A stretch of 23,338 nucleotides of DNA from a virus (IMGVR_UViG_3300046012_000483:1-23338); one strand, 5' to 3'; shown: positions 1-22,507, counted from the stretch's first letter. Translations and numbers: made by a program. The notes: a model not told the origin generated them from the sequence alone.

Positions 1-8
1 ATGTCATG

Positions 9-16
9 CTCCTTTT
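9..16 (-). promoter_or_regulatory. Shine-Dalgarno for the next gene beyond the left edge
   Basis: On the minus strand positions 16-9 read AAAAGGAG. An ATG at 7-5 is only one base away, too close for good initiation. An ATG beginning at position 2 would have ideal spacing if the next base outside the window is G. The minus-strand tail operon therefore probably continues past the left edge. The gene itself cannot be seen. Confidence 0.45.
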
Positions 17-28
17 CGTCACGTGCAG

Positions 29-57
29 GCTGGCACACACCCGGCCGGGCGGCCAGC
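29..57 (-). terminator. intergenic hairpin after the Tal-like gene
   Basis: The arms GCTGGC (29-34) and GCCAGC (52-57) are perfect inverted repeats, with a nested palindrome CCCGGCCGGG at 40-49. The hairpin lies just downstream of the stop at 63-65 in the minus direction. It has no following T-run, so it may be a weak terminator, an RNA-stability element or a processing site. Confidence 0.35.
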
Positions 58-62
58 ACCGG

Positions 63-1178
63 TCAGCTGTTCACCGCTGGTTTGGGCAGCCACATCGCCA
101 GGTAGTCCAGGAAATCGGACAGTGACGCGGCGACGGCCTGGAGCGGGGTGACCGCCCCCTGGTGGTCGGGGTCGGAGTAGGAGAACTTCCCCACCGGGAA
201 GATGACCGGGTTCGACGGGCCCGCCTGGGCACCGACCGGGCCGTCCGCGATCATCAGCTGGACCACCTGGTCGGCGTGCTCACACCCCAGATCGACCGGT
301 TCCCCCGTCATCGTGGTGTAGGACCCGTACCGGACGGGGATCGCGTCGGCGAAGCTGGCGTCCTGGTAGTGGGACATCGCCGCGGCGGCCCACCCGGCGG
401 CGGTCGCCCCGGACATCACCCCCGCCGAGGTGATGTCCCACACCTGCTCCAGCCGCTGGTGCTTCCCGATCGACACCGTGTTCAGGGCGGGGGTGGACAG
501 GGCGTAGGTCGCGACCGCGCCAGAGTCCGCGTTGTCGGCGGTCACCTGGTAGCGGGTGTACAGGGCGTTGATGAACGCGGCCAGTGACCGGGCCTGCGGT
601 GAGGTGGAGAACAGCAGCCGGGTCGGGACGGTGGGGATCGGGTAGATGGAGATCACGTTGTGCCGGCCGATATGCCACGTGTACGAACCCGGCCGGGTGA
701 TCGTGTTCAGGAACTCGGTGAGGCTCAGCGTCCCGGAGTCCTGCGGGTCGATCAGGTACATGCCCGTCGATGACAGCGACGGGATCTTCCACCGCAGCGG
801 CCCGGGGCTGCGGGCGGCGGCCTGGTTAAGGGCGTCGGTGACGGTCCACGACGACCAGATGTCCCGGAAGTTGTCGCCGTACTGCCCGGCCCCCTGGCAG
901 GTCAGCGACCACGACCCGTTGTCGTTGATGACCGGCTTCTGGAGGATCCCCTCGTACTGGACGGTGCCACCCCGCGACACCTCCAGGATCCGGCCGGTGG
1001 ACAGGGCCGGGGTGCGGTGGAACGCGTCCACCTGGACGGTGCACGTCAGGGTTTCCGGCCCGCCGGGGTTCGTGTCCGCCCACGTCAGGTCCGCGACCGG
1101 CCCCACATACCCCAGGGGGATCATGTCGGTGCGGTCCGGGTTGCGGGTCGTCACAGTCGATGGGGCGCGGTCATACAC
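63..1178 (-). CDS. minor tail protein, Tal-like baseplate hub candidate
   Basis: A 371-residue protein starting at GTG 1178 behind a strong AAGGGAGG site. The N-terminal 100 residues resemble the first beta domain of phage baseplate hub (gp27/Tal-type) proteins: a short strand-rich stretch with a 'GILQKPV' segment, then 'LTCQGAGQYGDNF', which matches the pattern I know from actinophage minor tail proteins (residues ~75-105). The rest alternates strand-rich and Ala-rich segments. No lytic domain is visible, and it is shorter than Tal proteins carrying a C-terminal fibre or peptidase. In siphophages this gene normally follows the Dit gene directly; here a 5.4-kb cassette separates them. It should form the tail tip below the tape measure. 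Virion role is likely; the precise hub assignment is inferred. Confidence 0.7.
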   Translation of the reverse strand: MYDRAPSTVTTRNPDRTDMIPLGYVGPVADLTWADTNPGGPETLTCTVQVDAFHRTPALSTGRILEVSRGGTVQYEGILQKPVINDNGSWSLTCQGAGQYGDNFRDIWSSWTVTDALNQAAARSPGPLRWKIPSLSSTGMYLIDPQDSGTLSLTEFLNTITRPGSYTWHIGRHNVISIYPIPTVPTRLLFSTSPQARSLAAFINALYTRYQVTADNADSGAVATYALSTPALNTVSIGKHQRLEQVWDITSAGVMSGATAAGWAAAAMSHYQDASFADAIPVRYGSYTTMTGEPVDLGCEHADQVVQLMIADGPVGAQAGPSNPVIFPVGKFSYSDPDHQGAVTPLQAVAASLSDFLDYLAMWLPKPAVNS

Positions 1179-1197
1179 CGGGGGCCTCCCTTCTCGC

Positions 1198-1203
1198 TAC
1201 GAT
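1198..1203 (+). promoter_or_regulatory. -10-like hexamer of a putative leaderless promoter
   Basis: TACGAT fits the actinobacterial TANNNT -10 consensus and ends 7 bases before ATG 1211. No clear -35 box and no purine-rich ribosome-binding site are present. The same arrangement occurs before other isolated plus-strand genes in the window. Confidence 0.5.
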
Positions 1204-1210
1204 GACGGGC

Positions 1211-1534
1211 ATGGCCGGATACCAGCTAGACCGAAATGAACTGGACCAGCGGATGGGCCGGGCGGTGACTGGCCTGCGGGACGCCCTGGACGAAGTCGCC
1301 GCGGTCAACGCGATGCTCCAGGACACAACCATCCTTGGTGTGCCCGCCGGCCCCAACCCGGTTGACCCGCTGACCACCCTGGACCAGCCGTACACGGCGG
1401 GGGAGATCACGAACATCCGTAACGGCATGTTCGCCCTGGCGCTGGGGACGATGGTGATGCACGGGCAGGCGACTGTCCCGAGCGTGTCCGATTTCTTTTT
1501 CTTCGCCAAGCACCTGGCCGGTGCCCGCTGGTGA
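1211..1534 (+). CDS. small helical phage protein, function unknown
   Basis: A 107-residue mainly helical protein. Residues 1-40 are rich in charged heptad-like spacing ('LDRNELDQRMGRAVTGLRDAL'-type helix). The C-terminus contains four consecutive Phe in 'SVSDFFFFAKHL', encoded by a T-rich stretch that stands out in this GC-rich DNA. I recall similar proteins of about 100 residues in Streptomyces-type phages, ending in a 'DFFF.AKHL'-like motif, with no known function. ATG 1211 is preferred over ATG 1202 because the -10-like TACGAT sits 7 bases before it and neither start has a proper ribosome-binding site. It runs opposite to the tail operon, diverges from the Tal-like gene 33 bases away, and overlaps the next plus-strand frame by 14 bases. 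Confidence 0.7.
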   Translation: MAGYQLDRNELDQRMGRAVTGLRDALDEVAAVNAMLQDTTILGVPAGPNPVDPLTTLDQPYTAGEITNIRNGMFALALGTMVMHGQATVPSVSDFFFFAKHLAGARW

Positions 1535-1876
1535 TGGCGGGCTGACCGGCGCTGAGCGGTCCACGCTCGATGGCCTGATCACCGCCGTCAACTCGCTGCA
1601 ATCGGCCCTGATCGCTGAGGGTTTCACTGCCCCGCCGCCGGTCCGGCCACCGTGGCGGGTCCCCGTGAAAATCGCTTACCGGCCCGACCCCGGGCACGGG
1701 GGGTTCTCCCCGAGCCGGTTTCGGCGTACCGGGAGCACCGGCTGCGGTTCGAGGTCACCGGGGACCCCGCCGAGCTGGAGAAGATGCTCGGCGCGTGGAC
1801 ACCCGCCGACGACACCCCACCGGCCCGGCCAGCGTGGCAGGTCCGCCTCGCGAGGTGGGTCCTGCGGCGGGTCTAG
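1521..1876 (+). CDS. frameshifted small phage gene (two frames joined at a G6 run)
   Basis: The frame starting at GTG 1521 gives a plausible helical protein ('LDGLITAVNSLQSALIAEGF') with good codon use as far as a six-G run at 1698-1703. After that this frame turns into Arg/Ser-rich nonsense. The -1 frame becomes protein-like there ('VSAYREHRLRFEVTGD', 'AELEKMLGAW', 'LARWVLRRV') and ends at TAG 1876. Before the G-run the -1 frame (openable from GTG 1652) uses codons such as TTA, AAT and CGA, so it does not look coding. The simplest reading is one protein of about 118 residues crossing the run by a -1 shift. It could instead be a natural frameshift mutation or an assembly indel. It overlaps the preceding gene by 14 bases, so translation may be coupled. 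Function unknown. Confidence 0.5.
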
Positions 1877-2370
1877 CTCACCGTGCCCGGGGTGACCGCA
1901 CCGGCACCGGCCGTGGTAGCGGTCAGGACCCCGTCCAGGTCCTCCACCGCCGCGAGGACCGCCGCGACGACCGCGTCCACATCACCCAGGGTCAGGACCC
2001 CGTCGATCGGTGACGCGGAGAACAGCCACATCCCGCCGTGCATCACCTCACCACCGACGTCGTAGCTGAACCCGTTGACCCGCCACTCATCGTCGCGGAA
2101 CTGGATATCGACCAGGCCCGCCTCATCGAACGGTGGCTGGTTATCGACGGCGAACAGCGTTTCGGTGCAGGACACCACCGGGGGCAGGGCCTCCACAGCG
2201 GCGGACAGCGCCGCCCGCACCGCATCCACCTGGGCGCCGGTCAGGTTCGCGTCACCGGGTGAGGACGACAGGAACGCGAGCTGGGTGGGGTCCCCGGCGG
2301 TGGTCACGTCGTAGATCCACATGGGGTATTCGTTGGTGCTGAACTCCCGGGTCCCGAGGATCTTGGGCAC
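1873..2370 (-). CDS. hypothetical phage protein with duplicated helix
   Basis: A 165-residue protein. GTG 2370 is chosen because TAGGAGG lies 7 bases upstream; the frame stays open further upstream but that part is a shadow of other genes. Residues 1-35 ('GTREFSTNEYPMWIYDV') look strand-rich. A helix 'LTGAQVDAVRAALSAAVEAL' recurs near the C-terminus as 'LTLGDVDAVVAAVLAAVEDL', suggesting an internal duplication flanking a central beta-rich segment. It follows the 148-residue gene by 11 bases, so the two probably form a minus-strand pair. Its TAG stop lies in the palindrome CTAG that also supplies the stop of the convergent plus-strand gene. I do not recognise the family. Confidence 0.65.
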   Translation of the reverse strand: MPKILGTREFSTNEYPMWIYDVTTAGDPTQLAFLSSSPGDANLTGAQVDAVRAALSAAVEALPPVVSCTETLFAVDNQPPFDEAGLVDIQFRDDEWRVNGFSYDVGGEVMHGGMWLFSASPIDGVLTLGDVDAVVAAVLAAVEDLDGVLTATTAGAGAVTPGTVS

Positions 2371-2381
2371 GGTGGGGCCTC

Positions 2382-2828
2382 CTACGCTTCGATGTTCGCG
2401 GATTGCAGGTGTGATTGCAGGTTGTTCACGGCGTTGACCAGCCCGTTGAACGCGGTCCTCTCCGAGGTCGTCATGCTGCCCGCGACCGTCGAAATCGTGG
2501 CGTTGGCGGTGGTCTGGTTCGCTATCGGCCCGATCATCCCGGCCAGGAACGTGGGGTCGTTGGCGTTGGCCAGGGTGGTCAGCACCGACCCGTTCGTCGC
2601 GACGAAATGCACCGCCGCCGAGGTCGCGGCGATGTGCGATTCCAGCCGCTTTTTGGTGTTCCGGTCCTGGGAGATGGGCTGCAACCCCACCACCGCGGTC
2701 GCGGCCAGCAGGAACAGCGACCCCACCTTGACCCTCGGTGATGCGGCCGCTTTGGACCCGGCCAGGTACAGGACGGTGGTCGCCGCCCCGGTGGCCAGGG
2801 CACGTGCGTGAGTGCGGGTGAGCTTCAC
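2382..2828 (-). CDS. small membrane-associated phage protein, holin-like candidate
   Basis: A 148-residue protein from GTG 2828 with GGAGG 5 bases upstream. The basic N-terminus ('KLTRTHARA') is followed by two hydrophobic stretches, residues ~11-28 and ~35-50 ('VGSLFLLAATAVVGL'), then a soluble tail rich in Thr, Ala and Asn. The last 25 residues ('SERTAFNGLVNAVNNLQSHL') resemble residues 11-35 of the plus-strand gene at 1521. Two membrane segments near the N-terminus and a position among tail genes make a holin-type role possible, but no lysin accompanies it and the C-terminal region is long for a holin. It diverges from the plus-strand gene at 2857 with only 28 bases between them. Confidence 0.6.
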   Translation of the reverse strand: MKLTRTHARALATGAATTVLYLAGSKAAASPRVKVGSLFLLAATAVVGLQPISQDRNTKKRLESHIAATSAAVHFVATNGSVLTTLANANDPTFLAGMIGPIANQTTANATISTVAGSMTTSERTAFNGLVNAVNNLQSHLQSANIEA

Positions 2829-2844
2829 CAGGACCTCCAGGTGA

Positions 2845-2850
2845 GACGAT
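2845..2850 (+). promoter_or_regulatory. weak -10-like hexamer upstream of GTG 2857
   Basis: GACGAT shares the conserved second A and last T of TANNNT and ends 6 bases before GTG 2857, the spacing of a leaderless promoter. The first base is not T, making this the weakest member of the set. It overlaps the ribosome-binding region of the divergent gene. Confidence 0.3.
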
Positions 2851-2856
2851 GCGGGA

Positions 2857-3144
2857 GTGAGCGAACTGTCGGACTTCGTGACGGCCCGCCTGGACGCGGC
2901 AGAGGCTTACGCCCGCGAGCCCACCAGCTGGAATGAGTGGGACCCCGGCGACCCCATCGACCCGGACCGGCAACTGCGAGTGGTGGCGTTCCTGCGCGGC
3001 GAACTGGCCGGGCACACCGGCACCCACCGCTGCGCGTGGGGTGACCACGTCACCGAAGAATCGGAGATGTGCGCCATGCAGCGGAAGATCGCATGGATCG
3101 ACCGTGACCATCCCCGCTGGCAGCAGGGGTGGGAACCGTCATGA
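2857..3144 (+). CDS. DUF6221-like small actinobacterial/phage protein
   Basis: A 95-residue soluble acidic protein beginning at GTG 2857. The opening helix 'DFVTARLDAAEAYAR' and the ending 'C..QRKIAWIDRDHPRWQQGW' resemble DUF6221 proteins, which I recall as starting with a similar 'ARLDEDEA.AR' helix and ending in a '...HP.....W' motif. The middle (residues 45-75) carries His and Cys residues ('GTHRCAWGDHVTEESEMC') that could bind metal, though this is only suggestive. There is no clear ribosome-binding site; a GACGAT -10-like hexamer lies 6 bases upstream. The stop overlaps the start of the next gene as ATGA, so the two are probably translated together. Function of the family is unknown. Confidence 0.65.
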   Translation: MSELSDFVTARLDAAEAYAREPTSWNEWDPGDPIDPDRQLRVVAFLRGELAGHTGTHRCAWGDHVTEESEMCAMQRKIAWIDRDHPRWQQGWEPS

Positions 3145-3467
3145 ACAGGGCCCGGCTGGTGTGGCGGTGGCTGTGCCAGCCGCTGCCGGTCAGCCGCGGT
3201 GCGGCACTGGTATGGGTCGCGTTCCTGGCCAGCTCCCGGACGCTCAGCCGCCTGCTGGCCGGGCACCCCGCCGTGCTCCCATGGACAGGTGTGGCCCTGG
3301 CCGGGCTGCTGGTACTCGTCACCGTCCGGCTGGCCTGGGGCACCCGCCGGACCCGCCGCGAAACGGCCGCCGCTGGCGCCCGGCAACTCCGCGCCCGGCA
3401 GACCGCTATGGTCCGGGTGATGCTGCGGGTCAAACCGAGAGCAGACGGCCGGCCACCACCCGGGTAA
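3141..3467 (+). CDS. small two-helix membrane protein, holin-like candidate
   Basis: A 108-residue protein starting at ATG 3141, which overlaps the preceding stop as ATGA. It has a short basic N-terminus, a hydrophobic segment at residues ~22-36 ('GAALVWVAFLASS'), a second at ~50-68 ('WTGVALAGLLVLVTVRLAWG'), and a strongly basic C-terminal tail ('RRTRRETA', 'ARQLRAR'). Two membrane spans plus a charged tail is a holin-like topology, but the same plan fits many small phage membrane proteins and no lysin gene is nearby. It is convergent with the secreted-protein gene, with a hairpin across the junction. A 12-residue longer start at GTG 3129 is possible but less likely given the ATGA overlap. 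Confidence 0.6.
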   Translation: MNRARLVWRWLCQPLPVSRGAALVWVAFLASSRTLSRLLAGHPAVLPWTGVALAGLLVLVTVRLAWGTRRTRRETAAAGARQLRARQTAMVRVMLRVKPRADGRPPPG

Positions 3468-3485
3468 CCAGGCGGCGGCCGGCCG
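3446..3485. terminator. bidirectional hairpin between convergent genes
   Basis: CGGCCGGCC (3446-3454) and GGCCGGCCG (3477-3485) form a perfect 9-bp stem around a 22-base loop. It spans the end of the plus-strand membrane-protein gene (stop 3467) and the gap before the minus-strand gene ending at 3492. No U-run follows on either strand; GC-only terminators of this kind are common in actinobacteria. Confidence 0.5.
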
Positions 3486-3491
3486 GTTCCG

Positions 3492-5270
3492 CTAGTCGTG
3501 GTTCAGCTGGACCCCTGCGATGCCCCACCAGTCCGACGCGGACTGGGTCCACCCCAGGGTCACACCACTACCGGTCGCGGGGGCGGTCACCCCACCGGAG
3601 TTCCCGGCACCCGAGCTGCTGTTCCCGTTCTCAATGAACCGGGACACCGCCGGGGACAGGGCCGCATCGAGCGGGTTCCCATCGGTGATGAACCCGGCGA
3701 CCAGGTTGCCCGCCGCCGTGGCCGGGACAGTGACCGACGGGGTGATGCTGAACCCGGTAGCGGCGGTCACCGCACTGAACGGGCTGGCCGGGTCCACGTG
3801 GCTGAACGACTCCCCCCCGGCGGTCAGCACAGACGGGGTGCACCCGGTCATCTTGACGCTGATCACGTTCGCGCCAGCCGGCGGGGCGGGGCGGGCCCAC
3901 AGGTCCATGTACCCTTCGTCACCGCCGTTGGAATGGACGACCGTCAGCCGGGTCATCGCAACCCCGTTGTCGGTGACCTTCTGGGTGCAGCCGACGTCGT
4001 TGCTGATCCCCACCGACGCCTCCACCAGCAGGGCCCGGTCCGTGCCGGACCCGACCGTCTGGGTGAAACTCAGCGACCGGGACCCGAAGCTGCGCGCGGC
4101 GGTGGCCGACCCGAACGCGACGGAGTTACCCGCCGCCGCGGTGGTCAGGACCTGGTCCGCGCCCAGGGTCGTGCCCGTGGCGTTGGTGGCCTCCACCCGG
4201 TAGTGGTAGGCGGTGGACGGTGCCAGGCCCGCCAGGGTGGCACTCTGCGCCACCGAGGCGCTGCCCGAGCCCGCGTCACCAGCGGGGACCGGGACGGACG
4301 TGCCGTAGCTGGTGGTGGTCCCGTAGTCGAACTGGTAGGTGGTGGCCTGGGCTTCGGGGTTGACGGTGCCGTTCAGGGTCGCGGCCGACGCGGTGACCCC
4401 GGTCGCGGCCTGGGTGTTGACCACCGGGGCCTGCGGGGTGCCGCCACCACCCGAACCCGGCGTGGCGGTGATCGTGTAGGCCGACACGGTGAACGTGGCG
4501 TGCTCCGCCGAGGTGATCTCGTACCCGGTGTTCAGCTGGGTCATCGTCACCGGGCCCGGGATGAACCCGTTCGAGGACAGCCAGTCCAGGCCGGCTTTGA
4601 TGTCGATCGTCCCGGACTGCTGGTGGGCGCAGCTGTTCGGCGTGCCCGGGTCAGTGTCGAGCACCATGATGATCTCAGCGCCGGGCCCGCCGTACCGGTT
4701 GACCGTCCAGGTCTGCCCACCGAAAACGGCGGTGCCCAGGATGGTGTCACCGTAGGACCCGGGGTTGCACCGCCCGACCGTGTCCGCCCAGAACATCACG
4801 TCGGACGGGTAGTTCGTCCACACGTCCGGCGCGAACTCATACATGTCATTCGCGCCGGACGGGCCGGCTTCGGTGTAGTTGACTGCGAGGGTGGACAGCT
4901 GGTCAACGGGGGTGTCGGCGGTGCCGTCCCACCCGGCGCCGTCCCAGTCGTTGGTCAGCTGCTGGGTGTCGGGGAACAGCTCCACCGACCCGTTCCCGTA
5001 CGGCTGCGCGTCGGCCACCAGCGACCAGGACTGGGGCCCGCCCGCGGTCAGGGTCGCTGTGGTCTGCGGGAACGCCCCGACGTCCTGGTTGGCCACATAG
5101 GTGTTGAACCCGTTGGACATGGGGCTGAACACATTGTCCTGGTAGGGGCCGCAGTTCTGGCCGAGAGTGACGGTGCAGGTGGCCGCCTGGGCGGCCCCCG
5201 CAGGGGCGGCCAGGGCCAGCCCCGTTCCCAGCAGCGCTGCGCTGAACAGCGCGGCGAGTTTCCTGATCAT
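3492..5270 (-). CDS. secreted GH12-like / fibronectin III-like / beta-module protein
   Basis: A 592-residue protein from ATG 5270 with GAGGAG upstream; an upstream extension would spoil the signal peptide. Residues 1-30 are a signal peptide (MIRK, hydrophobic core, 'AQA' cleavage site). Residues ~40-270 resemble GH12-type concanavalin-like domains: 'CGPYQDN', 'MYEFAPDVW', 'SDVMFW', 'NTGYEITSAE'. Comparing from memory with actinobacterial GH12 cellulases, the acid/base Glu may be E251, but the nucleophile position appears to be D157 in 'SDVMFW', so this may be a binding domain rather than an enzyme. After a Gly linker, residues 282-378 form an Fn3-like domain ('ATLNGTVNPEAQATTYQFDYG', 'YHYRVEATNATGTT'). 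Residues ~384-590 are a beta-sandwich module ending 'WWGIAGVQL', also found in two other proteins here. A Sec signal on a gene among tail genes suggests a cargo or moron gene acting outside the cell. Confidence 0.75.
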   Translation of the reverse strand: MIRKLAALFSAALLGTGLALAAPAGAAQAATCTVTLGQNCGPYQDNVFSPMSNGFNTYVANQDVGAFPQTTATLTAGGPQSWSLVADAQPYGNGSVELFPDTQQLTNDWDGAGWDGTADTPVDQLSTLAVNYTEAGPSGANDMYEFAPDVWTNYPSDVMFWADTVGRCNPGSYGDTILGTAVFGGQTWTVNRYGGPGAEIIMVLDTDPGTPNSCAHQQSGTIDIKAGLDWLSSNGFIPGPVTMTQLNTGYEITSAEHATFTVSAYTITATPGSGGGGTPQAPVVNTQAATGVTASAATLNGTVNPEAQATTYQFDYGTTTSYGTSVPVPAGDAGSGSASVAQSATLAGLAPSTAYHYRVEATNATGTTLGADQVLTTAAAGNSVAFGSATAARSFGSRSLSFTQTVGSGTDRALLVEASVGISNDVGCTQKVTDNGVAMTRLTVVHSNGGDEGYMDLWARPAPPAGANVISVKMTGCTPSVLTAGGESFSHVDPASPFSAVTAATGFSITPSVTVPATAAGNLVAGFITDGNPLDAALSPAVSRFIENGNSSSGAGNSGGVTAPATGSGVTLGWTQSASDWWGIAGVQLNHD

Positions 5271-5327
5271 GATCGGTGCTCCTCGGTTTGGCGGTCGGTT
5301 GGGCACTGCGGATCAAGGCCCCGGCGG

Positions 5328-5333
5328 TAAGGT
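5328..5333 (+). promoter_or_regulatory. -10-like hexamer upstream of the tRNA
   Basis: TAAGGT fits TANNNT and ends 8 bases before the first base of the tRNA (5342). No convincing -35 is visible at 17-18 bases upstream. It could start a transcript covering the tRNA and the gene at 5437. Confidence 0.4.
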
Positions 5334-5341
5334 GACCAGCA

Positions 5342-5418
5342 CGCGGGGTGGAGCAGCTCGGTAGCTCGCTAGGCTCATTACCTAGAGGTCGTCAGTTCAA
5401 ATCTGGCCCCCGCTACTA
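5342..5418 (+). tRNA. initiator-type tRNA-Met (anticodon CAT), variant
   Basis: A full cloverleaf folds by eye. Acceptor: CGCGGGG (5342-5348) with CCCCGCT (5408-5414). D-stem: GAGC/GCTC. Anticodon stem: CTAGG/CCTAG, with loop CTCATTA (CAT at 5376-5378). Variable loop: AGGTC. T-arm: GTCAG, loop TTCAAAT, then CTGGC. The discriminator is A5415. Initiator hallmarks are the unpaired C1 x T72, the A11:T24 D-stem pair and close similarity to actinobacterial initiator tRNAs as I recall them. Oddities: the usual three G:C pairs at 29-31:39-41 are reduced to two, with A:T at 29:41; base 37 is T (5379) instead of a purine; the 3' end reads CTA rather than CCA. It sits 18 bases before the plus-strand CDS at 5437 and diverges from the secreted-protein gene. 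It may be functional and phage-adapted, or decaying. Confidence 0.85.
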
Positions 5419-5436
5419 CCGGGAGAGGACCGTCCG

Positions 5437-5775
5437 TTGAGTTTCGGGATCTACTGCCAGTGGCCGCCCGCCGACAAACCACCCGTGGTCAGCCTGCCAC
5501 AGCCGCTCAAGTACGTCCTGGCCAAACGGCTGTGGGGCCACGACGGGTCACTGCGCGGTGAGGCCATCCTGGGCAAGGACTCCGTGGAGTACCTCCAGGG
5601 CATCTGCGACGCCTCCGACCCGGACGGTGACGTGGCCAAGGGCGCGAAGATGCTGATGACGCTAATCCGCAGGCACGGCGACATGAAGCTGTGGGTCGGT
5701 GAGTGGTACGACGGTCCCGGTGACAACAACGGGCAGGTCATCCCCAGCTCCGAGCTGCCCCCCGATTTCTTCTGA
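5437..5775 (+). CDS. hypothetical phage protein
   Basis: A 112-residue soluble protein that I do not recognise. The start is TTG 5437, with GAGAGGA 8 bases upstream; no ATG or GTG start fits as well. It begins 'SFGIYCQWPP' and contains several Trp residues, a central Lys-rich helix ('DVAKGAKMLMTLIRR'), and ends in an acidic, Pro-containing tail ('PSSELPPDFF'). It lies 18 bases after the tRNA, so the two may share a transcript. Downstream is a region of strong hairpins and then a convergent minus-strand gene. Unlike the other isolated plus-strand genes it has a proper ribosome-binding site, consistent with being second on a message. Confidence 0.65.
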   Translation: MSFGIYCQWPPADKPPVVSLPQPLKYVLAKRLWGHDGSLRGEAILGKDSVEYLQGICDASDPDGDVAKGAKMLMTLIRRHGDMKLWVGEWYDGPGDNNGQVIPSSELPPDFF

Positions 5776-5792
5776 TATCTTGACCGCCGGGT

Positions 5793-5877
5793 GAAGCACC
5801 GGCCGCCGGTACAGCGGCCGGGCCACGGTGGGCCGTACGAACCCCGTGCTTCCGGGTATGGGTTGAACCCTGGCCCG
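5793..5877. other. dense hairpin element between convergent genes
   Basis: This 112-base gap (5776-5887) has no gene. GAAGCAC (5793-5799) pairs with GTGCTTC (5846-5852). Immediately inside is a perfect 7-bp hairpin CGGCCGC/GCGGCCG (5800-5806, 5814-5820; loop CGGTACA). Further on are the palindrome GGGTTGAACCC (5860-5870) and an alternative closing pair CGGGCCA (5819-5825) with TGGCCCG (5871-5877). The 7-bp outer stem stacked on a hairpin recalls a tRNA-like fold, but no T-loop or anticodon arm fits. A bidirectional terminator is the most economical explanation; a small structured RNA is the alternative. Confidence 0.45.
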
Positions 5878-5887
5878 CCCCCACAGC

Positions 5888-6133
5888 TCACTGTTCGAGG
5901 TGCGGCGGGCCGGCACCTTCGCGGATCTCCATGGGCAGGCCCATCAGCAGCTCCGGCCCGGTGACCGGCACGGGCGGGGGACAGAACGCGCTCCGGCGGT
6001 CGTCATCGACCCGGCGGACGTCGCTGACCCACTCGGGGTCCATCACCCAGTGGGAGGCCCGCCGCTGACCGGCGGGGGTGTCCGAGTAGGTGCGGATGAT
6101 GTGCTCGCGCAGTTCCTCGGCCAGGCCCGTCAT
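5888..6133 (-). CDS. small actinophage protein, function unknown
   Basis: An 81-residue protein starting at ATG 6133 ('MTGLAEELREHIIRTY'). The frame is open further upstream, but that part has no start signal and looks like non-coding translation. The middle contains 'HWVMDPEWVSDVRRVDDD'; the C-terminus 'LMGLPMEIREGAGPPHLE' matches a tail ending ('.G.P.E.R..AGPPHL') that I recall from small proteins of Streptomyces-type phages. Upstream of the ATG are AAGG and GGGTGG, giving a modest ribosome-binding site, and also TAAGGT (6147-6142 on the minus strand) 8 bases before the start. It is divergent from the gene at 6257 across a structured 123-base gap. No function is known. Confidence 0.65.
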   Translation of the reverse strand: MTGLAEELREHIIRTYSDTPAGQRRASHWVMDPEWVSDVRRVDDDRRSAFCPPPVPVTGPELLMGLPMEIREGAGPPHLEQ

Positions 6134-6141
6134 GCCACCCG

Positions 6142-6147
6142 ACCTTA
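6142..6147 (-). promoter_or_regulatory. -10-like hexamer upstream of ATG 6133
   Basis: On the minus strand TAAGGT ends 8 bases before ATG 6133, and the same hexamer precedes the tRNA. It overlaps a possible AAGG ribosome-binding site, so this gene could be leadered or leaderless. Confidence 0.3.
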
Positions 6148-6171
6148 CTGGTACGGTGGGGTTCTGCTCTG

Positions 6172-6228
6172 ATCCCCCCGCCACCGGCCCGCGCACCTCT
6201 ACTGCGCAGGGGCCGCCAGCGGGGGGAT
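6172..6228. repeat. 10-bp inverted repeat in a divergent intergenic region
   Basis: ATCCCCCCGC (6172-6181) and GCGGGGGGAT (6219-6228) are perfect inverted repeats 37 bases apart. Between them GCGCA (6191-6195) pairs with TGCGC (6203-6207), and GGCCC with GGGCC around it with a bulge. The region separates the divergent genes starting at 6133 and 6257. It could be an operator, a cruciform, or a hairpin insulating the two promoters. Confidence 0.5.
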
Positions 6229-6244
6229 TATTCAGTTCCGGGGC

Positions 6245-6250
6245 TACCCT
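6245..6250 (+). promoter_or_regulatory. -10-like hexamer of a putative leaderless promoter
   Basis: TACCCT fits TANNNT and ends 6 bases before ATG 6257. No ribosome-binding site lies in the usual window, and no -35 match is apparent. Confidence 0.4.
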
Positions 6251-6256
6251 GACCGC

Positions 6257-6472
6257 ATGGACTATGCCGACCGGCCGATTGTGGAGCGGGAACTGCGCCT
6301 GACCCTGGACATCCTCCGCCACGAACTACGGGCCATCAGCGAGGACACCCCCGGTGACCGCGACGCGTGGGACGCGAAGATGGCCGAGTTCCAGGACGCG
6401 GAGCAGAGATTGCGGATGTACCTGGACCGGCAGGACCGGCGGGCCCAGGCCGGGCTACTATTGCCTGGCTGA
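6257..6472 (+). CDS. small helical (coiled-coil-like) phage protein
   Basis: A 71-residue highly charged protein, almost entirely helical by eye ('ERELRLTLDILRHELRAIS', then 'AEFQDAEQRLRMYLDRQDRR'), with a short loop around 'TPGDRDAW' that suggests a helical hairpin. ATG 6257 is the only reasonable start. It lacks a ribosome-binding site but has TACCCT 6 bases upstream, so it is a leaderless candidate. It is convergent with the Dit-like gene and separated from it by a hairpin-rich 160-base gap. Function unknown. Confidence 0.65.
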   Translation: MDYADRPIVERELRLTLDILRHELRAISEDTPGDRDAWDAKMAEFQDAEQRLRMYLDRQDRRAQAGLLLPG

Positions 6473-6515
6473 GCCTGGGCGCCAGTCAATATGTCGCCTG
6501 GGTAGGGGACGCCCG

Positions 6516-6630
6516 AACCGCCGCCAGCCGTACAGGGTCCTAGGCCCGCACCGGCCCGGCGGTTGCGGCACAGCAGAGGGCCCCGGCCCGCGCCCGACTA
6601 GATCCGGGCACGGTACGGGGTCCCTCCGTG
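6516..6630. terminator. hairpin-rich convergent gap
   Basis: The 160-base gap 6473-6632 holds no gene. AACCGCCG (6516-6523) pairs with CGGCGGTT (6557-6564), with GGGTCCTAGGCCC nested in the loop. CACGG (6609-6613) pairs with CCGTG (6626-6630) immediately after the Dit-like stop codon. These probably end both the minus-strand tail transcript and the plus-strand small gene's transcript. Confidence 0.5.
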
Positions 6631-6632
6631 TG

Positions 6633-9600
6633 TCAGTACAGCCGTGAGTCGCGCCACCGCCGCCAGAACCCCGCCGTCAGGGCAGGAGCCCCAGCGTCGG
6701 GGGAGTACGCCAGCATCCACCCCGGCCCCTCCGGGTCCATGACCAGCGGCCCCCCGGACATCGCCGCCACACTGTCGAGCGCGGACACCGCCGATTCCCG
6801 GCCGTACGGCGACGCGAGGACCCGGCCCCAGTCCCGGTTCTTGTTCAGCTCCGGGGCGTCAGCCCACAGGTTCGGGGCCCCCACCGCGTCGTTGTACACC
6901 AGCAGCTGCCCGGACACGTCCGCCACGATGATGTCCATGCACCGGTCCGCCGCGTTGGTGGACGTGACCCCCGCCGTGGTGAACGCCGACGTCTGGTCAT
7001 CGGCAATATCACGGCAGGGCAGGGCCACCTCATCGAGCGTCACATACCCGTTGAGGATCGCGGGGATCTCCGCGGACGGGGTCAGGACCCGCGACACCGT
7101 CCGCACGGTTGGGGTGCCCCCCACGTACGGGTACTGCTTGAAAGTGACCGTGTGGGTCCGCTGCGCCGATGGGGTGTCGATCACCAGCCAGATCGTGATG
7201 ATCGTGTACGTGCCGGCGTAGCGGGCGTTCAGCCCAGGGACCGGCGACGGGATGGTGTACTCCCGCCCATCGGGTGCATCGAGCCCCGACCCCACCGGGA
7301 TCAGCGGGGAGAACGTCGCCGGGGCGTCATACCCCGGGACGTGCACGATCAGGGTTTTGATGTTGGGCAGCGCCGCTGTGGTGGTGATCGCCACCGACCC
7401 GTTAGCGGCAGCCGAGGACGACACCGCACCGGACGTGGACACCGCACCACCGGACGCACCGCCAGGCGCCGACCCGGCCACACCCGGGTTGTTCCCCCCG
7501 GCCGCGCCGCCAGCACCACCGGCACCACCCCCGGTGGGGGCCGCTGCGCCGGCCTGCCCGGCCGCGTCGTTGCCCTGGGCCGAATCACCAGCTGAGGACC
7601 CGCCACCGCCACCTGTGGTCACGGCGGTGAAACCGTTACCGCCACGCAGCGGGGTGTTCCCCCCAGCGGGGGTGACACAGTTCGCGGTCACCCCACCGAG
7701 CCCGCCTGTGGTGGTGTCCGGCGGGACGGACTTCCCGCCGTCCGCGACGAACGCCAGGCTGTCGAAACTGGACTTGCCGCCGTCGGTGAGCCCACCTGTG
7801 TTGGCCGACTGGATTTCGATCCCGGCCAGCTCCCAGACCTGCGACGCGGGGGCGGTCAGCCCGCAGGTCTGCGCCCCCGCCGCAGCGGCCTGCTGCCACG
7901 CCCAGTACCCGGTGTAGGTGGACGGGACCACGTGGTAGGCGTCCTCCGTCGCGGAGGACCGGTATGTCCGGGCGGAGGACGCGGCGTTGCGGTCAGCGTT
8001 GACCCACGACACCACGCTTTGCGCCGCGACGGTTGTGCACGTCCCGGACGGGGCGGACCCGGACCCGGAGCTGGACAGCAGCGCCGGGGACCCGGCCAGT
8101 TTCGCGTTGCCCCACCGCTCGACCAGCATCGCGTGTGGCATGGGGTAGCCGGAGAACGGCACCGACACCGTCATGGCTGACGGGGTGGCGCCCACGGTCG
8201 CGGTCCACACCGTGCACCGGGACGTGCCGAACGCCGTCCCGATGTTGACCCGCTGGGTCCAGGTCAGGCCCCCGCCGGACGGGGACCCGAAGCTGGCGAA
8301 CGCATCCTCAATGACCCCCTTGATGACGATGACCTCACCCGCGGCCGGGGTGAAACTGGGGGTGGCCAGGGTGAACCCGTTCGCGCCGTCCTGCTGCACG
8401 AAATACGACGTGGTCAGGGTCGGGAACGTCCCGGACCCGCCCGCCGCGCCGACCACACCGAACATGGCCTGCCCGGGGGTCATCGGGTACGTGTCGTGCC
8501 CCACCCCGGCGCCGGCGCCGCCACCACCGGCCAGCCCAGCGGTGGTGCGGCTGCCACCTTTGCCGGCCGCGCCCTTGACCCGGATTTTCCCCGAGGTCTG
8601 CCCGATCCCGGGGATGAACGTGATCGGGCCCGCGGTGGAGAACGTGGTGGTGGCCAGTGCGGGTGACGCGGGCGCCGCAGGCTGGAACTGGGCGTCCATC
8701 AGGGTGCGGACCACCCCACCGGGCGCACCGATGTTGTACACGGTGCCGCGCAGCTGCGCGATCGGGGCGTTCGCCGACGCGGTGGCGGTGAGCCCGTTGA
8801 GGTACACGTCGGCGTCCATCCGCAGGTTCCCCGAGAATGACACCTCCCGCCACGCTTTGATCGACCACGCGGAGATCGTTGCCACGTTGAACCCGGCGGG
8901 CATGTTCTGGATAGCGAACGTGGTGGTCACCCACGTGGGGAAAGCCGGGTTGTTCGACGCGGAGCACTGCGCGTAGTTGCCGAACGTCGCGACTTTCCCC
9001 GCCCCGTCGGTCAGGGTCAGGGAGAACGTGACCCTGCCCTCATGCCACAGGGTGTAGTTCGACGTGCCGAGCCCGAAGTTGAGGGTCAGCCGGTCCAGCC
9101 CGGTGATGTCCACCGGGCCGGCCAGGGTGTGGGTGTACAGCGGGGCGGTGTTCCCCCCCGACCCGGCGTACGACCACCGGGCCGACGCCGAGTCGCTGAC
9201 GACCTGCGCGGATGACGACCACAGGGACGGCTGGGTGGATGACGACACGGTGGAGAAGTCATCGAGCCGCACCGGGGCCACCGAACTGGACCAGCCCACC
9301 GCCGGGATGGGGAACGGCAGCACCGTGTAATCGGCGCTGCGCCCGAACGGGTGAGCGGGAAACGTCAGGTTCACAAACGCGACCAGTTCGTCCTCACTGT
9401 CCTGGTCGGGGTTCTGCGCGGCTTCGGTGGCCCGGTAGCAGTCGTACACCAGCGGCAGGGCGGTGCCGCCCTGCGGGTCGGGGGTCCACTGCAACGGGAA
9501 CTTGGGCTGATCCACCAGCCCGAAGATCATTTCCTTGGCGCCGTTGAGGTTGGCCCGGCTGGTCCCGTAGATCACCACCGGCAGGGTGATCGTCCGGTTT

Positions 9601-9797
9601 TCGGTGCGCCTGCCCGTGGGGACGCTGCCATCAGTCAGCAGCGCCGCGACGACCGCCGTTTCCGGCTGGCCCGCGCCCCGGTTGAAATTGGGCTGGAGCA
9701 CGAACTCCGCGCCGGGGCACAGCGGGTGGGCTGACGCCACCCCGCCGCGCATCAGCTCGCAGGTGCCCGCGAGGATCAGCGAGTCCGAAGCGCTCAC
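6633..9797 (-). CDS. Dit-like distal tail protein with carbohydrate-binding-like, Gly-rich and beta-module regions
   Basis: A 1054-residue protein starting at GTG 9797, overlapping the tape-measure stop as GTGA, with GGGAGG upstream. Residues 1-165 fit the N-terminal Dit/siphovirus tail-component pattern ('LILAGTCELMRGG', 'RTITLPVVIYGTSRANL', 'FVNLTFPAHPFG'). Residues ~178-345 look like a jelly-roll carbohydrate-binding domain. Residues ~403-457 and ~667-803 are Gly-rich, as in phage receptor-binding proteins, and are split by an inserted beta-sandwich (~458-665, ending 'WELAGIEIQ') that resembles modules in two other genes here. The C-terminal 250 residues end 'MLAYSPDAGAPALTAGFW', a tail ending I recall from Streptomyces-type phages. 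It follows the tape measure as Dit genes do. It likely forms the distal tail ring and contributes to host binding. Confidence 0.8.
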   Translation of the reverse strand: MSASDSLILAGTCELMRGGVASAHPLCPGAEFVLQPNFNRGAGQPETAVVAALLTDGSVPTGRRTENRTITLPVVIYGTSRANLNGAKEMIFGLVDQPKFPLQWTPDPQGGTALPLVYDCYRATEAAQNPDQDSEDELVAFVNLTFPAHPFGRSADYTVLPFPIPAVGWSSSVAPVRLDDFSTVSSSTQPSLWSSSAQVVSDSASARWSYAGSGGNTAPLYTHTLAGPVDITGLDRLTLNFGLGTSNYTLWHEGRVTFSLTLTDGAGKVATFGNYAQCSASNNPAFPTWVTTTFAIQNMPAGFNVATISAWSIKAWREVSFSGNLRMDADVYLNGLTATASANAPIAQLRGTVYNIGAPGGVVRTLMDAQFQPAAPASPALATTTFSTAGPITFIPGIGQTSGKIRVKGAAGKGGSRTTAGLAGGGGAGAGVGHDTYPMTPGQAMFGVVGAAGGSGTFPTLTTSYFVQQDGANGFTLATPSFTPAAGEVIVIKGVIEDAFASFGSPSGGGLTWTQRVNIGTAFGTSRCTVWTATVGATPSAMTVSVPFSGYPMPHAMLVERWGNAKLAGSPALLSSSGSGSAPSGTCTTVAAQSVVSWVNADRNAASSARTYRSSATEDAYHVVPSTYTGYWAWQQAAAAGAQTCGLTAPASQVWELAGIEIQSANTGGLTDGGKSSFDSLAFVADGGKSVPPDTTTGGLGGVTANCVTPAGGNTPLRGGNGFTAVTTGGGGGSSAGDSAQGNDAAGQAGAAAPTGGGAGGAGGAAGGNNPGVAGSAPGGASGGAVSTSGAVSSSAAANGSVAITTTAALPNIKTLIVHVPGYDAPATFSPLIPVGSGLDAPDGREYTIPSPVPGLNARYAGTYTIITIWLVIDTPSAQRTHTVTFKQYPYVGGTPTVRTVSRVLTPSAEIPAILNGYVTLDEVALPCRDIADDQTSAFTTAGVTSTNAADRCMDIIVADVSGQLLVYNDAVGAPNLWADAPELNKNRDWGRVLASPYGRESAVSALDSVAAMSGGPLVMDPEGPGWMLAYSPDAGAPALTAGFWRRWRDSRLY

Positions 9798-12700
9798 ATG
9801 AACCTCCCGGCCACCGTTGCGATGTTTTTGTTCAGGACGTCGTCCAGGCCCCGGCTGGTGCCCGGTGCGACCCCGCGGACCGCGGCGGTGACCTCGCGGC
9901 GCATCTGGTGCATGGCGTCGGCCAGTTCAGCCCACCCGCCACCACCAGACGGTGACGCGCCACCGTCACCCGACCAGCCCGACCGTGGGCCGAACCGGCC
10001 GACCGGGTCCAGGAACGGCATGCCCACGGGCATCCTCGGCCTGCCGAACAGCCCCGCGAGCCCGGCGGGGATCCCACCCGCCGCACCTGGCTGCCCGCCA
10101 CCGATGTAGGGCAGCAGCCACGCCGGCGCCGGGAACGTGGGCCCTGGCGCGGAACCACCGCCGCCACCACTGGACCCGCCCCCGGTGTCGCCGCCACCGT
10201 CACCGCCGGGGTCGCCCGGGTCCGGGGCTGGCTTGCCCGGACCGCCGTACTTGGCGCCGGACGGGTAACCGGCGAGCCGCCGCAGGATCGCGATCTTGCG
10301 GGACAGCGCCGATTCGGTCCTGCCCTCGGTGATGTTGAACCGGGCCAGGTTCGCGCGGGCCACCATCCGGTCCCGGTGGTGCTCGTTGTACCCGATCGTG
10401 CCCTTTTTGGCCTTCGGGTGGTTCAGGAACCACAGCTCGGTGACGTCCACACTGGTCCGCAGTTTCCGCCGCCGGATGGCAGCGTGCTTCTCGTCGGTGC
10501 GCAGCGTGTGCACCGCCGTGGCCAGCTGGGCCAGCCACTTTTTGCGGTACGGGTCGTGCTTGCCGACTTTGCCGCCCTTCGCGAACCCGCCCGGCGGCAC
10601 CCCGAACCCGGAGTTGCCCCCGGAACTGTGGATGACCGTACCGACACCGGGGTTGTCCGCACCGACGTACCGGCCGCCGCCCAGGGAGATCCCGACGTGT
10701 GACGCGGTCCCGCCACCGCCGTAGAAAAAGACCAGTGCACCGGGGATGTCCCCCGACGGTTTGGCCCACAGCTGCTGGGTTTGTGAGGTGCGCGGCGGGC
10801 TGTACCCGTAGTGGTTGTAACACCACTTAGAGAAGCCACTGCAATCCCAGCCTGCCGGGGTGTTACCACCCCACACGTACGGGTGGTTCAGGCCGGTGCC
10901 GAACGACGCGGCGTACCGGGCCAGGCCGCGGTTGCCGCCCTTCCCGATCCCGAAACTGCCCGCGTTGGCTTTCAGCTGCGCGCTTTTGATGCCCGCAGCG
11001 GTCGCTTTCGCGGTGGCCTGCTCAATGGTGGTGACGGTCTGGTTGTACTGGGACGTCTCAAACGACCCCACACCACGGGGGGTGCCCTTGAACGTGCCGG
11101 CGACCTGCCCGCCAGCGGCCATGCCCGGGTACAGGATCGCGGCCTGCCCGGTGTTGACCGCGTGCATGGCCCGGTCCCCGTAGTGGGCCGCCGAGTTGGC
11201 GCGGATCACCCATTCGTTGTTCGACAGGGCGTACAGGCCCGCCTTGTCCTCGGTCGGCCCACCCGGACCGCGGACCGCACCACCGGTCGCGCTGTTCTTG
11301 ATGCGCCTGCCACCACCACCGTTGAGGAGCTGACCGCCGTGGGACAGCTCGGACACGCTCCAGTGACCCGACGCGGCCACGGTGATGTCCACCGCCTTGT
11401 TTTTCAGTAGCCGCAGCGCCTCCCGCAGGGCGTCCACCTCCGCCGCCGCGAACTTGGAATGCCCGGCGTGGACCTTGAGCCATTTGATCTGGTCCTGGAT
11501 GGTGCCGGTGGCCTTGGCCATCCCGTTTTTCTGCCGGGACTCCCCGTTGGCCAGGTCGATGGCCGCCTGGGTGGCCAGGAGCACCTGCTGGCGGGCGTCC
11601 ATCGCCGCGGAGGACTGCCCCCGCAGGCCCGTGTTCGAGTTGTTGATCGCGGTCAGGGCAGTCTTCTGGGCCTGCTGGAACGACAGGAGGCTCTGCTGCC
11701 CGGTCAGAAGCCCGTTGGTGACCCGGTCCAGGGACCTTTTCAGGGCGTTCTGCGCGTCGGTCAGCCGCAGTGACGCCACCGTTGCCTGACCGGACCCGGT
11801 CGCGTAGGAGACAATCTTGCGGAACGCCGCCTGGCCGGCCTGGCCGCTGGCGGCGAGCTGCTGCCCGGTAACCCCCGCCTTCTGCGCGAGCTTCTGCGCC
11901 GCCCCGGCGGACAGCCCGTACACGTCCTGCAACGTGTGCAGCCGCGTGGACAGGTTCGCCGCCGCACTGGCCACCTGCGCGTGGACCTGCGCCAGGACCC
12001 CCATCCTCAGCTGGTACGCCTTCGCGGCGAGCCCCGAATCGGCCATGCCACCCTGGGCGCTGCGGAACGACTGCGCGAGCCGGCTGTTACTGCCCTCCGC
12101 GACGTTGGTCTGCTTCGCGAGCCTCGCGTACGCGTCGGAGCTGAACCCGGCCGCTTTGACCTGCCGGTCGATGGACTCGCCAAGCCTGTCCTCGGTCGCC
12201 TTGAACCCGTTGGTGGCGACGGCCAGCACACCGATCGCGGCGGCGGCCACCCCCAGCGGGCCGAGCAGGGACACCAGCACAGACGCGGCGGTGCCGCCCC
12301 TGGCGACGAACGACGCGAGTTTCCCCCCGGCGGTGCCCGCCGCACCGGAGAACGCCGACGCGGCGACCGCAGCGTTCCTGTACCCGCCGACCAGCCGGCC
12401 GATGACCCCGTACAGCTTCGTGGCCCCAGTGATCGCGGTCCCGGAACTGAACACCGTCAGGCCCGTTTTGACGCCCAGGAACGCGAGCTTGAGCCGGGCC
12501 AGGGTGCCCCGCAGCAGACCGAAGTAGATCACCGCCCGGACCAGGCCGGCGTTCGCGGTGAGCTGCGCCATGATCTGGGTCAGCGGGACCAGGATCTGGA
12601 GAAGCGCCTTGGAGTTCGCCGGGGACGCCAGCCCGACCGTGGCCGCCGCCACGTTCTTGATGATGACCACCAGGTTCTTGAGGACCTGCACCGCCAGGGG

Positions 12701-13801
12701 TGTTTCGGTTTTGAACGTGGTCATCAGCGACTGGAACCCCGAGTGGCTGGGCAGCGACGTGGCCCACTGGCGGAACTTCGCGGTCAGCTTCTCCGTGCCG
12801 GCCCCGACCGTGTCCGCCATCGGGAGGAACGCCCGGATGATCCCGCCGATCCCCACCGCGATGTTCGCGATGGAATGGCCCAGGAACAAGATCGCGGGGA
12901 TCACGTGCGGGACCAGTTCCTGCACGAATTTGGTCAGCCCACCCCCGGACAGCGACCTGGAGGCCTGGCCTATCAGGATGCCGATGGCTTTCGCGCCGGC
13001 CAGTACCAGCGGGGTGATGTCGTGCAGCAGCGGGTTGACCAGGGTCAGGCCCTTCTGCAACGGGGCCAGCACCGGGCGGGCCAGGCCGTTCGCCCACTTC
13101 TGGTAGGAGTCCTGGGTGGCCTTGAGGGTTTTCGCGAACGCGATCACCGGGGCTGGGGTGTCTTTCACCGCGGCGTTGTACTTCGCCTGGGCGGCGGCCA
13201 TCGCCGTGGTGCGGGACGCGGCGGCGGTCTGCTGGGATGCACCCCCGGCCAGGGCAGCCTTGTACGCCAGCTGGCCCGTGACCCGGGCGGAGTCCAGGGC
13301 CTTCTGCGCGGTGGTCACCGCGGACGTCTCGGTGATCAGCGGTTTGAGGGCGACGCTGTACGCGGCCAGGCCCGCACCACCGGACGCGAACGCGGCGGCC
13401 AGCCCACCCGCGGTGACCAGCAGCCCGGCCAGGGCCGGTTCCGCGACGCCCGTCGCGAGGTTCACCGCACCCAGGGCCTTCGCGAAAATGCTGGAGTCTT
13501 TCGACGCGATCTGGGTCACCGCGTCGAACCCGGTCACCGTGCCGACCAGGGCGAACACGCTTTTGTTAGCGGACCCGGCGTCCTTGGACTGCTGCCGGAA
13601 CGACGCGGAGGACCGGCCCACCGACGCGGAGGCCTTGTCCGTCTGGGCGGACAGCTGCCGCATCGCGGTTTCGTTGCGGTTCAGGGCGGCCTGGGACGCG
13701 GCGACGGACTTGTTTGACTTGTCCACCTGGTCGGCGAACCGGTTGAACGCGGAACCGGCCCGGTCGTCCCCGAGCAGCACAAACCGCAGCGTGGTTCCCA
13801 C
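9794..13801 (-). CDS. tape measure protein with NlpC/P60 peptidase domain
   Basis: A 1335-residue protein. GTG 13801 is chosen because AAGGGAGG precedes it by 5 bases; ATG 13819 lacks such a site. Residues 1-80 are coiled-coil-like. Hydrophobic segments (~120-150, ~300-328, ~370-395 and others) alternate with Ala-rich helices, as in tape measures. An NlpC/P60 domain at about residues 950-1060 shows 'HPYVWGG', catalytic Cys987 in 'WDCSGF' (codon 10843-10841) and His1035 in 'ASHVGIS' (10699-10697). A basic segment and a Pro/Gly-rich linker follow, then a short C-terminal helix. At roughly 0.15 nm per residue the length implies a tail near 200 nm. The peptidase probably cuts host peptidoglycan during DNA entry. 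The order is typical: chaperones upstream, Dit downstream. Confidence 0.92.
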   Translation of the reverse strand: MGTTLRFVLLGDDRAGSAFNRFADQVDKSNKSVAASQAALNRNETAMRQLSAQTDKASASVGRSSASFRQQSKDAGSANKSVFALVGTVTGFDAVTQIASKDSSIFAKALGAVNLATGVAEPALAGLLVTAGGLAAAFASGGAGLAAYSVALKPLITETSAVTTAQKALDSARVTGQLAYKAALAGGASQQTAAASRTTAMAAAQAKYNAAVKDTPAPVIAFAKTLKATQDSYQKWANGLARPVLAPLQKGLTLVNPLLHDITPLVLAGAKAIGILIGQASRSLSGGGLTKFVQELVPHVIPAILFLGHSIANIAVGIGGIIRAFLPMADTVGAGTEKLTAKFRQWATSLPSHSGFQSLMTTFKTETPLAVQVLKNLVVIIKNVAAATVGLASPANSKALLQILVPLTQIMAQLTANAGLVRAVIYFGLLRGTLARLKLAFLGVKTGLTVFSSGTAITGATKLYGVIGRLVGGYRNAAVAASAFSGAAGTAGGKLASFVARGGTAASVLVSLLGPLGVAAAAIGVLAVATNGFKATEDRLGESIDRQVKAAGFSSDAYARLAKQTNVAEGSNSRLAQSFRSAQGGMADSGLAAKAYQLRMGVLAQVHAQVASAAANLSTRLHTLQDVYGLSAGAAQKLAQKAGVTGQQLAASGQAGQAAFRKIVSYATGSGQATVASLRLTDAQNALKRSLDRVTNGLLTGQQSLLSFQQAQKTALTAINNSNTGLRGQSSAAMDARQQVLLATQAAIDLANGESRQKNGMAKATGTIQDQIKWLKVHAGHSKFAAAEVDALREALRLLKNKAVDITVAASGHWSVSELSHGGQLLNGGGGRRIKNSATGGAVRGPGGPTEDKAGLYALSNNEWVIRANSAAHYGDRAMHAVNTGQAAILYPGMAAGGQVAGTFKGTPRGVGSFETSQYNQTVTTIEQATAKATAAGIKSAQLKANAGSFGIGKGGNRGLARYAASFGTGLNHPYVWGGNTPAGWDCSGFSKWCYNHYGYSPPRTSQTQQLWAKPSGDIPGALVFFYGGGGTASHVGISLGGGRYVGADNPGVGTVIHSSGGNSGFGVPPGGFAKGGKVGKHDPYRKKWLAQLATAVHTLRTDEKHAAIRRRKLRTSVDVTELWFLNHPKAKKGTIGYNEHHRDRMVARANLARFNITEGRTESALSRKIAILRRLAGYPSGAKYGGPGKPAPDPGDPGGDGGGDTGGGSSGGGGGSAPGPTFPAPAWLLPYIGGGQPGAAGGIPAGLAGLFGRPRMPVGMPFLDPVGRFGPRSGWSGDGGASPSGGGGWAELADAMHQMRREVTAAVRGVAPGTSRGLDDVLNKNIATVAGRFM

Positions 13802-22270: not shown

Positions 22271-22276
22271 TACGGT
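22271..22276 (+). promoter_or_regulatory. -10-like hexamer of a putative leaderless promoter
   Basis: TACGGT fits TANNNT and ends 6 bases before ATG 22283. ATGACA (22250-22255), close to the TTGACA -35 box, lies 15 bases further upstream, slightly short of ideal spacing. It overlaps the start of the divergent 214-residue gene, so the two could affect each other. Confidence 0.45.
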
Positions 22277-22282
22277 GGGGCC

Positions 22283-22507
22283 ATGAACAATGAGCTGGTC
22301 GCGGTGTTCGGCGCGGACATTTACGAGGCGAACCCGCCGCGGTGGTGGCGGAAGTGGCCGCCGTGGCGCCGCCCCCGTGTGGTGCACGTGGGCTTCCGCC
22401 ACGGCGGCCCGGCGGAACCCCGGATGGGTATCTCCTGGGACAGCTTCGGTACGGCCCGGCTGGACTTCGGCGGTCAGCCCCAGCCGGACAGCGGCGGCGG
22501 GGAGTAA
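22283..22507 (+). CDS. small basic phage protein on the opposite strand
   Basis: A 74-residue protein from ATG 22283. Residues 15-40 are strikingly Trp/Arg/Pro-rich ('NPPRWWRKWPPWRRPRVVHV'), like a membrane- or nucleic-acid-contacting segment. The end is Gly-rich. It opposes the late genes on both sides: divergent from the 214-residue gene, and overlapping the methyltransferase tail end-to-end by 34 bases. There is no strong ribosome-binding site; a TACGGT -10-like hexamer 6 bases upstream suggests a leaderless message. No family recognised, but the start signal and codon use argue for a real gene. Confidence 0.55.
   Translation: MNNELVAVFGADIYEANPPRWWRKWPPWRRPRVVHVGFRHGGPAEPRMGISWDSFGTARLDFGGQPQPDSGGGE

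Follow-up and report, generated by a model that had tools for sequence, protein, structure and literature searches.

In Streptomyces lividans 17% of transcripts are leaderless; 93.4% of these carry a TAnnnT motif, and the spacer between the -10 element and the start has a mean length of 6.3 nt, 88.7% of the spacers being 5-7 nt long (PMC8079986). Moron genes form a known class of autonomous accessory genes of temperate phages (PMC7067206). In Cluster O mycobacteriophages, the structural operon contains small opposing genes, i.e. genes facing against the operon, and the PL2 promoter before Corndog gene 53 has been predicted to have a leaderless-like arrangement relative to the start codon (PMC4351075). 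The same layout, TTGACA-N17-TAGATT-N6-ATG, is present at Giles gene 4, an opposing gene adjoining the terminase gene. The late region of phiC31 likewise contains an opposing gene, gene 32, for which the annotation records transcription in lysogens. No TANNNT was found at leaderless distance before the annotated opposing genes of VWB, and a literature search of open papers returned no published survey of such genes.

Here we describe plus-strand genes that face the late tail operon of an uncultured soil phage. The window, i.e. the whole stretch of DNA analysed, is a virus record of 23.3 kb with a GC content of about 70%. Its tail module lies on the minus strand, with PHROGs matches to distal tail, major tail and other tail proteins, and a 1328-aa protein containing NlpC/P60 is probably the tape measure. 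Relatives retrieved with the major tail protein as query came not only from metagenomes but also from genomes of Spongiactinospora, Actinomadura and Actinoallomurus, which makes an actinobacterial host very probable. Two further features of the module were observed. Between the major tail protein gene and the large gene at 9794-13780, the minus-strand region 14454-15025 holds overlapping frames (14579-15025 and 14454-14828) that are both conserved in relatives, an arrangement like that of tail assembly chaperones made via programmed frameshift. Moreover, the region 3492-5306 on the same strand encodes a protein of about 600 aa whose N-terminus resembles a signal peptide and which contains fibronectin-like repeats (weak Pfam matches).

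It is likely, judging from the sequence features described below, that the plus-strand genes are autonomous moron-like cassettes that use the leaderless promoter layout of the host. The elements concerned are the following, gap denoting the number of bases between hexamer and start codon:

1198-1203, plus strand: TACGAT, -10 element, gap 7 to the ATG at 1211
1211-1534, plus strand: 107-aa gene, predicted leaderless, with weak relatives in tail operons (locus L053, Streptomyces phage Bing gp22, phrog_35320)
2845-2850, plus strand: GACGAT, weaker -10 element lacking the first T, gap 6 to the GTG at 2857
2857-3144, plus strand: 95-aa DUF6221-like gene, predicted leaderless (PF19730, E=2e-4, below the curated cut-off)
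3141-3467, plus strand: 108-aa gene, second of the cassette, overlapping the stop of 2857-3144
3446-3485, no strand assigned: inverted repeat, candidate two-way terminator at the convergent end of cassette 2857-3467
5328-5333, plus strand: TAAGGT, 8 nt upstream of the tRNA, whose 5' end is at 5342
5342-5416, plus strand: initiator-type tRNA-fMet, sharing 88-89% identity with chromosomal tRNAs of the same type in two actinobacteria
5437-5775, plus strand: 112-aa gene directly behind the tRNA
5888-6133, minus strand: 81-aa late-strand gene without a clear Shine-Dalgarno (SD) site, divergent from 6257
6142-6147, minus strand: TAAGGT, gap 8 to the ATG at 6133
6172-6228, no strand assigned: highly stable and almost symmetric hairpin (about -51 kcal/mol, z about -4.5) separating the divergent genes 6133 and 6257
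6245-6250, plus strand: TACCCT, -10 element, gap 6 to the ATG at 6257
6257-6472, plus strand: 71-aa gene, predicted leaderless
22271-22276, plus strand: TACGGT, -10 element, gap 6 to the ATG at 22283
22283-22507, plus strand: 74-aa gene, predicted leaderless, without homolog in the related loci

The preliminary description had proposed that the isolated plus-strand genes at 1211, 6257 and 22283 each possess a TANNNT hexamer 6-7 bases before the start codon, that 2857 has a weaker one at the same distance, that TAAGGT stands 8 bases upstream of both the tRNA and the minus-strand gene 6133, and that none of the four plus-strand starts has a good SD site. All of these elements were recovered at the positions listed above. 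SD complementarity of at least 4 nt was absent by score at 6257; by eye, no SD was seen at 1211, 22283 has only a weak G-rich sequence, and at 2857 a GGGAG is present only directly against the start codon. Inspection by eye also revealed no -35 box at the four plus-strand promoters. In each plus-strand gene of the window the claimed frame scored best of the six by codon usage, and these genes look coding. The layout expected of a leaderless promoter, with 5-7 nt between the end of TANNNT and the start codon, is found at 1211, 6257 and 22283, while 2857 has NANNNT at gap 6 and 6133, at gap 8, is borderline. As only 63.8% of S. lividans leaderless promoters have the first T (A in 94.5%, last T in 97.4%; PMC8079986), GACGAT lies within the range of leaderless -10 elements, although the site at 2857 taken singly could be due to chance.

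The gene at 2857 heads a two-gene unit together with 3141-3467. At neither the inverted repeat closing this unit nor the hairpin 6172-6228 did a scan detect a U-tract of the terminator type. Orthologs of the window's own plus-strand genes are almost absent and the encoded proteins are nearly orphan: comparison with Pfam and PHROGs gave nothing firm, the 2857 protein has two weak matches in viral contigs and no homolog in phages, and the 5437 and 6257 proteins have no homologs in phages either. For the 1211 protein no homolog was detected in viral contigs, and among phages Bing gp22 was the only match (E=2e-3). Because its relatives in L053 and Bing lie on the tail strand, and the sequence upstream of the L053 copy lacks TANNNT, 1211 may be an inverted gene of the tail module. 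Behind it, the plus-strand ORF 1521-1876 shows an apparent frame change around 1690-1720, and its start (LTGAERSTLDGLITAVNSLQSALIAEGF) resembles the C-terminus (MTTSERTAFNGLVNAVNNLQSHLQSANIEA) of the minus-strand protein 2382-2828. In locus L002 the counterpart of the window interval 1178-6633 measures about 0.76 kb, with no individual insertion junctions discernible.

Like the 2857 gene, 8 of 30 chromosomal DUF6221 genes are preceded by a NANNNT-N6 layout. These eight elements are [CG]AGGAT-like and end exactly 6 nt before the start (e.g. in L255, L256, L257 and L166), which is suggestive of either a leaderless -10 element lacking the first T or a short, weak SD site.

The tRNA 5342-5416 has initiator features (A11:U24, absence of the 1:72 pair), and its chromosomal counterparts belong to the Spongiactinospora rosea and Actinoallomurus genomes. 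It differs from them by A29:U41 in place of the first of three G:C pairs, by U37 for A37 in the anticodon loop and by T-stem changes, and CCA is not encoded. A tRNA of any kind occurs in only 1 of 41 related loci. The gene behind it, 5437-5775, is not leaderless, since it has its own SD (GGGAGAGGA). Altered anticodon loops of phage tRNAs have been proposed to evade tRNA-cutting defences (PMC10264068). It is a speculative and improbable idea that the altered initiator tRNA sustains or favours initiation at the start codon alone under conditions in which the host's own initiator tRNA is scarce or cleaved by a host nuclease; if so, leaderless expression combined with a phage initiator tRNA would be a deliberate translational bypass.

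To assess TANNNT enrichment outside the window, as the preliminary description had suggested, we surveyed about 145 related tail loci. Genes were called with one codon model in three successive sets of loci, each locus oriented by the major tail gene; the start choice of the gene caller is approximate, and TANNNT positions were measured before predicted starts. In the first set (57 loci including the window), TANNNT at gap 6 preceded 6 of 58 opposing genes versus 0 of 749 tail-strand genes. In the second (71 new loci), gaps 5, 6, 7 and 8 were found in 5, 6, 1 and 1 of 43 opposing genes, the gap-5 cases representing one repeated locus, and gap 6 in 11 of 869 tail-strand genes, nearly all from one family behind the major tail protein. 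The third set comprised 21 further tail loci, run together with four genomic DUF6221 loci; among the tail loci, one opposing gene had the hexamer at gap 6 and two at gap 7, and no tail-strand gene had it at gaps 5-8. For the final count, which excluded the window, the four DUF6221 loci and three genomic duplicates of viral contigs, proteins were clustered at 50% identity. TANNNT at gap 6-7 then preceded 12.3 of 83 opposing versus 2.9 of 772 tail-strand clusters (Fisher p of about 1e-10). The enrichment in relatives is therefore specific to both position and strand: the peak before opposing genes is sharp and lies exactly at gap 6, and gap 6-7 matches on that strand recur in all three sets. Only 9% of the leaderless opposing genes had an SD of at least 5 nt, versus 46% of the tail-strand genes without the element.

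An origin of the signal from stop codons was considered and rejected: the tail-strand gap-6 matches nearly all belong to one family, partly built on TAG, and clustering removes most of their weight. The family in question, the tail-strand gene behind the major tail protein in L080-L084, L091-L093, L095 and L096, has TAGCCT, TAATCT or TAGCAT at gap 6; this hexamer, partly lying on the TAG stop, is possibly an internal leaderless promoter. At opposing genes of L029, L053 and L163, a TTGACA or TTGACT precedes the -10 hexamer by just 8 nt (e.g. TTGACAGAGTGGTATACCAT), a distance too short for a -35 box. In a small set of Pseudomonas D3-like control loci of lower GC content (54-62%), none of 21 opposing genes had the TANNNT layout.

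The opposing genes with this layout in relatives include those for a resolvase-type recombinase (L017), a CopG/RHH-like small protein (L122, with a similar gene in L033), Phd/YefM antitoxins (L078, L127), a PadR/MarR-like protein (L063), XRE-like regulators (L080-L084, L095, L096) and a lipoprotein-like protein (L029, L053), a cargo typical of accessory or lysogeny functions. The small opposing genes in L027 and L024/L026 are predicted to be RHH-like, with Pfam matches that are not firm. The preliminary description had named missing hexamer conservation in relatives as evidence against its proposal. In the relatives' cassette families the hexamer is kept: TACTAT, TATGCT or TATACT, always at gap 6-7, in the XRE family; TACCAT in both lipoprotein-like genes; and TACCGT in the RHH-like genes of L024/L026 and L027. 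Furthermore, the XRE cassette, of about 0.5 kb, lies between two tail genes in L082, L095 and L096, and the same tail genes abut in L091/L092, so that the former represent the occupied and the latter the matching empty site. On the far side of this cassette, the next tail gene is preceded by a TTGAC, then a -10-like sequence and a start of the AAGGAG type, as if the cassette restarted tail transcription.

Taken as a working model, the cassettes would lodge between late tail genes of an actinobacterial phage, facing against them. Each unit would start from a -10 TANNNT of the host housekeeping-sigma type without a recognisable -35, located 6-7 bases before the start codon. Given this gap, transcription would begin at the A or G of ATG or GTG, or one base earlier, to yield a leaderless mRNA, on whose end ribosomes would initiate with the start codon itself as signal. 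Promoter and ribosome signal together would occupy only about 13 bp, and a gene could therefore drop in between tail genes. Host RNA polymerase would express such a cassette independently of the late programme, plausibly also in the prophage. For the window genes we infer leaderless transcription and translation as well as expression in lysogens, just as the promoters of the plus-strand units are predictions from their sequence.

Three other explanations were weighed against this model. Genes and hexamers had been chosen after the sequence was seen, so a reader in search of patterns might simply have picked AT-containing hexamers that occur by chance. The frequency of TANNNT in the window is 4.7e-4 per position (both strands), and three or more of 5 plus-strand transcription units would have it at gaps 5-8 with a probability of about 7e-8 (for 3 of 7 units, about 2e-7). 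Moreover, an exhaustive scan of the whole window for TANNNT-N5-8-start codon followed by an ORF of at least 30 codons gave four occurrences, and all four are named genes: 1211, 6257 and 22283 on the plus strand and 6133 on the minus strand. As the pattern also holds in independent loci outside the window, chance is statistically refuted for the hexamer set and is a most improbable explanation; the placement of the named hexamers is real and far beyond chance.

The -10 boxes could also be real while the dominant transcripts start elsewhere, translation then proceeding from leadered mRNAs or readthrough. GGAG-type sites are indeed present at gene 32 of phiC31 and at many of the relatives' opposing genes, and 60% of the opposing genes without the element have an SD of at least 4 nt. 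However, the sharp peak at gap 6 coincides with a low SD frequency in exactly these genes, and a sigma-70 promoter scan of window positions 1-7000 gave no match, which makes this reading unlikely. That the opposing genes form one co-regulated lytic set under a phage factor, rather than having independent host-type promoters, is suggested by the similarity of several TACNNT hexamers within one genome segment (TACGAT, TACCCT, TACGGT). But beyond the hexamer no shared sequence was seen around the four promoters, and in relatives the units code for unrelated proteins and differ in their hexamers, so we consider co-regulation somewhat less probable still. Autonomous, host-type leaderless units remain the preferred reading. 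The proposal of autonomous mini-genes is thus supported by the enrichment and strand bias in relatives and refined in that the units are host-typical, sometimes two-gene cassettes, and not a special regulon. TANNNT at gaps 5-8 precedes 15 of 88 opposing clusters, about 17%. As this share is close to the one that leaderless transcripts have in S. lividans, it seems that the phage employs the ordinary layout of the host rather than a special one. Most opposing genes in relatives lack the layout, and it is commoner in the window than in its relatives. It applies to autonomous units in general, possibly including the late-strand gene 6133.

The units share with actinobacterial leaderless promoters (PMC3160421, PMC8079986) the TANNNT, a spacing of 5-7, mostly ATG starts, a purine at the predicted +1 and a similar share of units; unlike these they belong to phages and, in the loci surveyed, chiefly precede genes opposed to the late operon. 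They resemble morons as additional genes, each with a predicted promoter of its own, lodged among structural genes, with an empty site in relatives for the XRE cassette and a cargo fitting lysogeny or accessory functions, but they face against the operon, their promoter is predicted to be leaderless, and their terminators are only candidates. As with Corndog gene 53, small opposing genes interrupt a structural operon and the promoter is predicted in leaderless position. According to its published description, however, Corndog PL2 concerns one gene for a putative DNA-binding protein in one cluster, with a SigA-like promoter, whereas here several -35-poor units occur in an unrelated phage and relatives were surveyed. 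The phiC31 gene 32 differs from the window genes by having a GGAG site upstream of its start and no TANNNT at leaderless distance. The backward, predicted leaderless genes thus fit a known kind, with Corndog gene 53 as precedent; new are the strand-specific survey and the occupied and empty site.

TANNNT-N6-ATG on the strand against the late operon provides a sequence-only test for autonomous genes in uncultured actinobacterial phages, in which SD-based annotation can misplace or miss short genes. The small size of promoter plus start signal, we suggest, may be a reason why cargo genes are so easily added to the late operons of actinophages.
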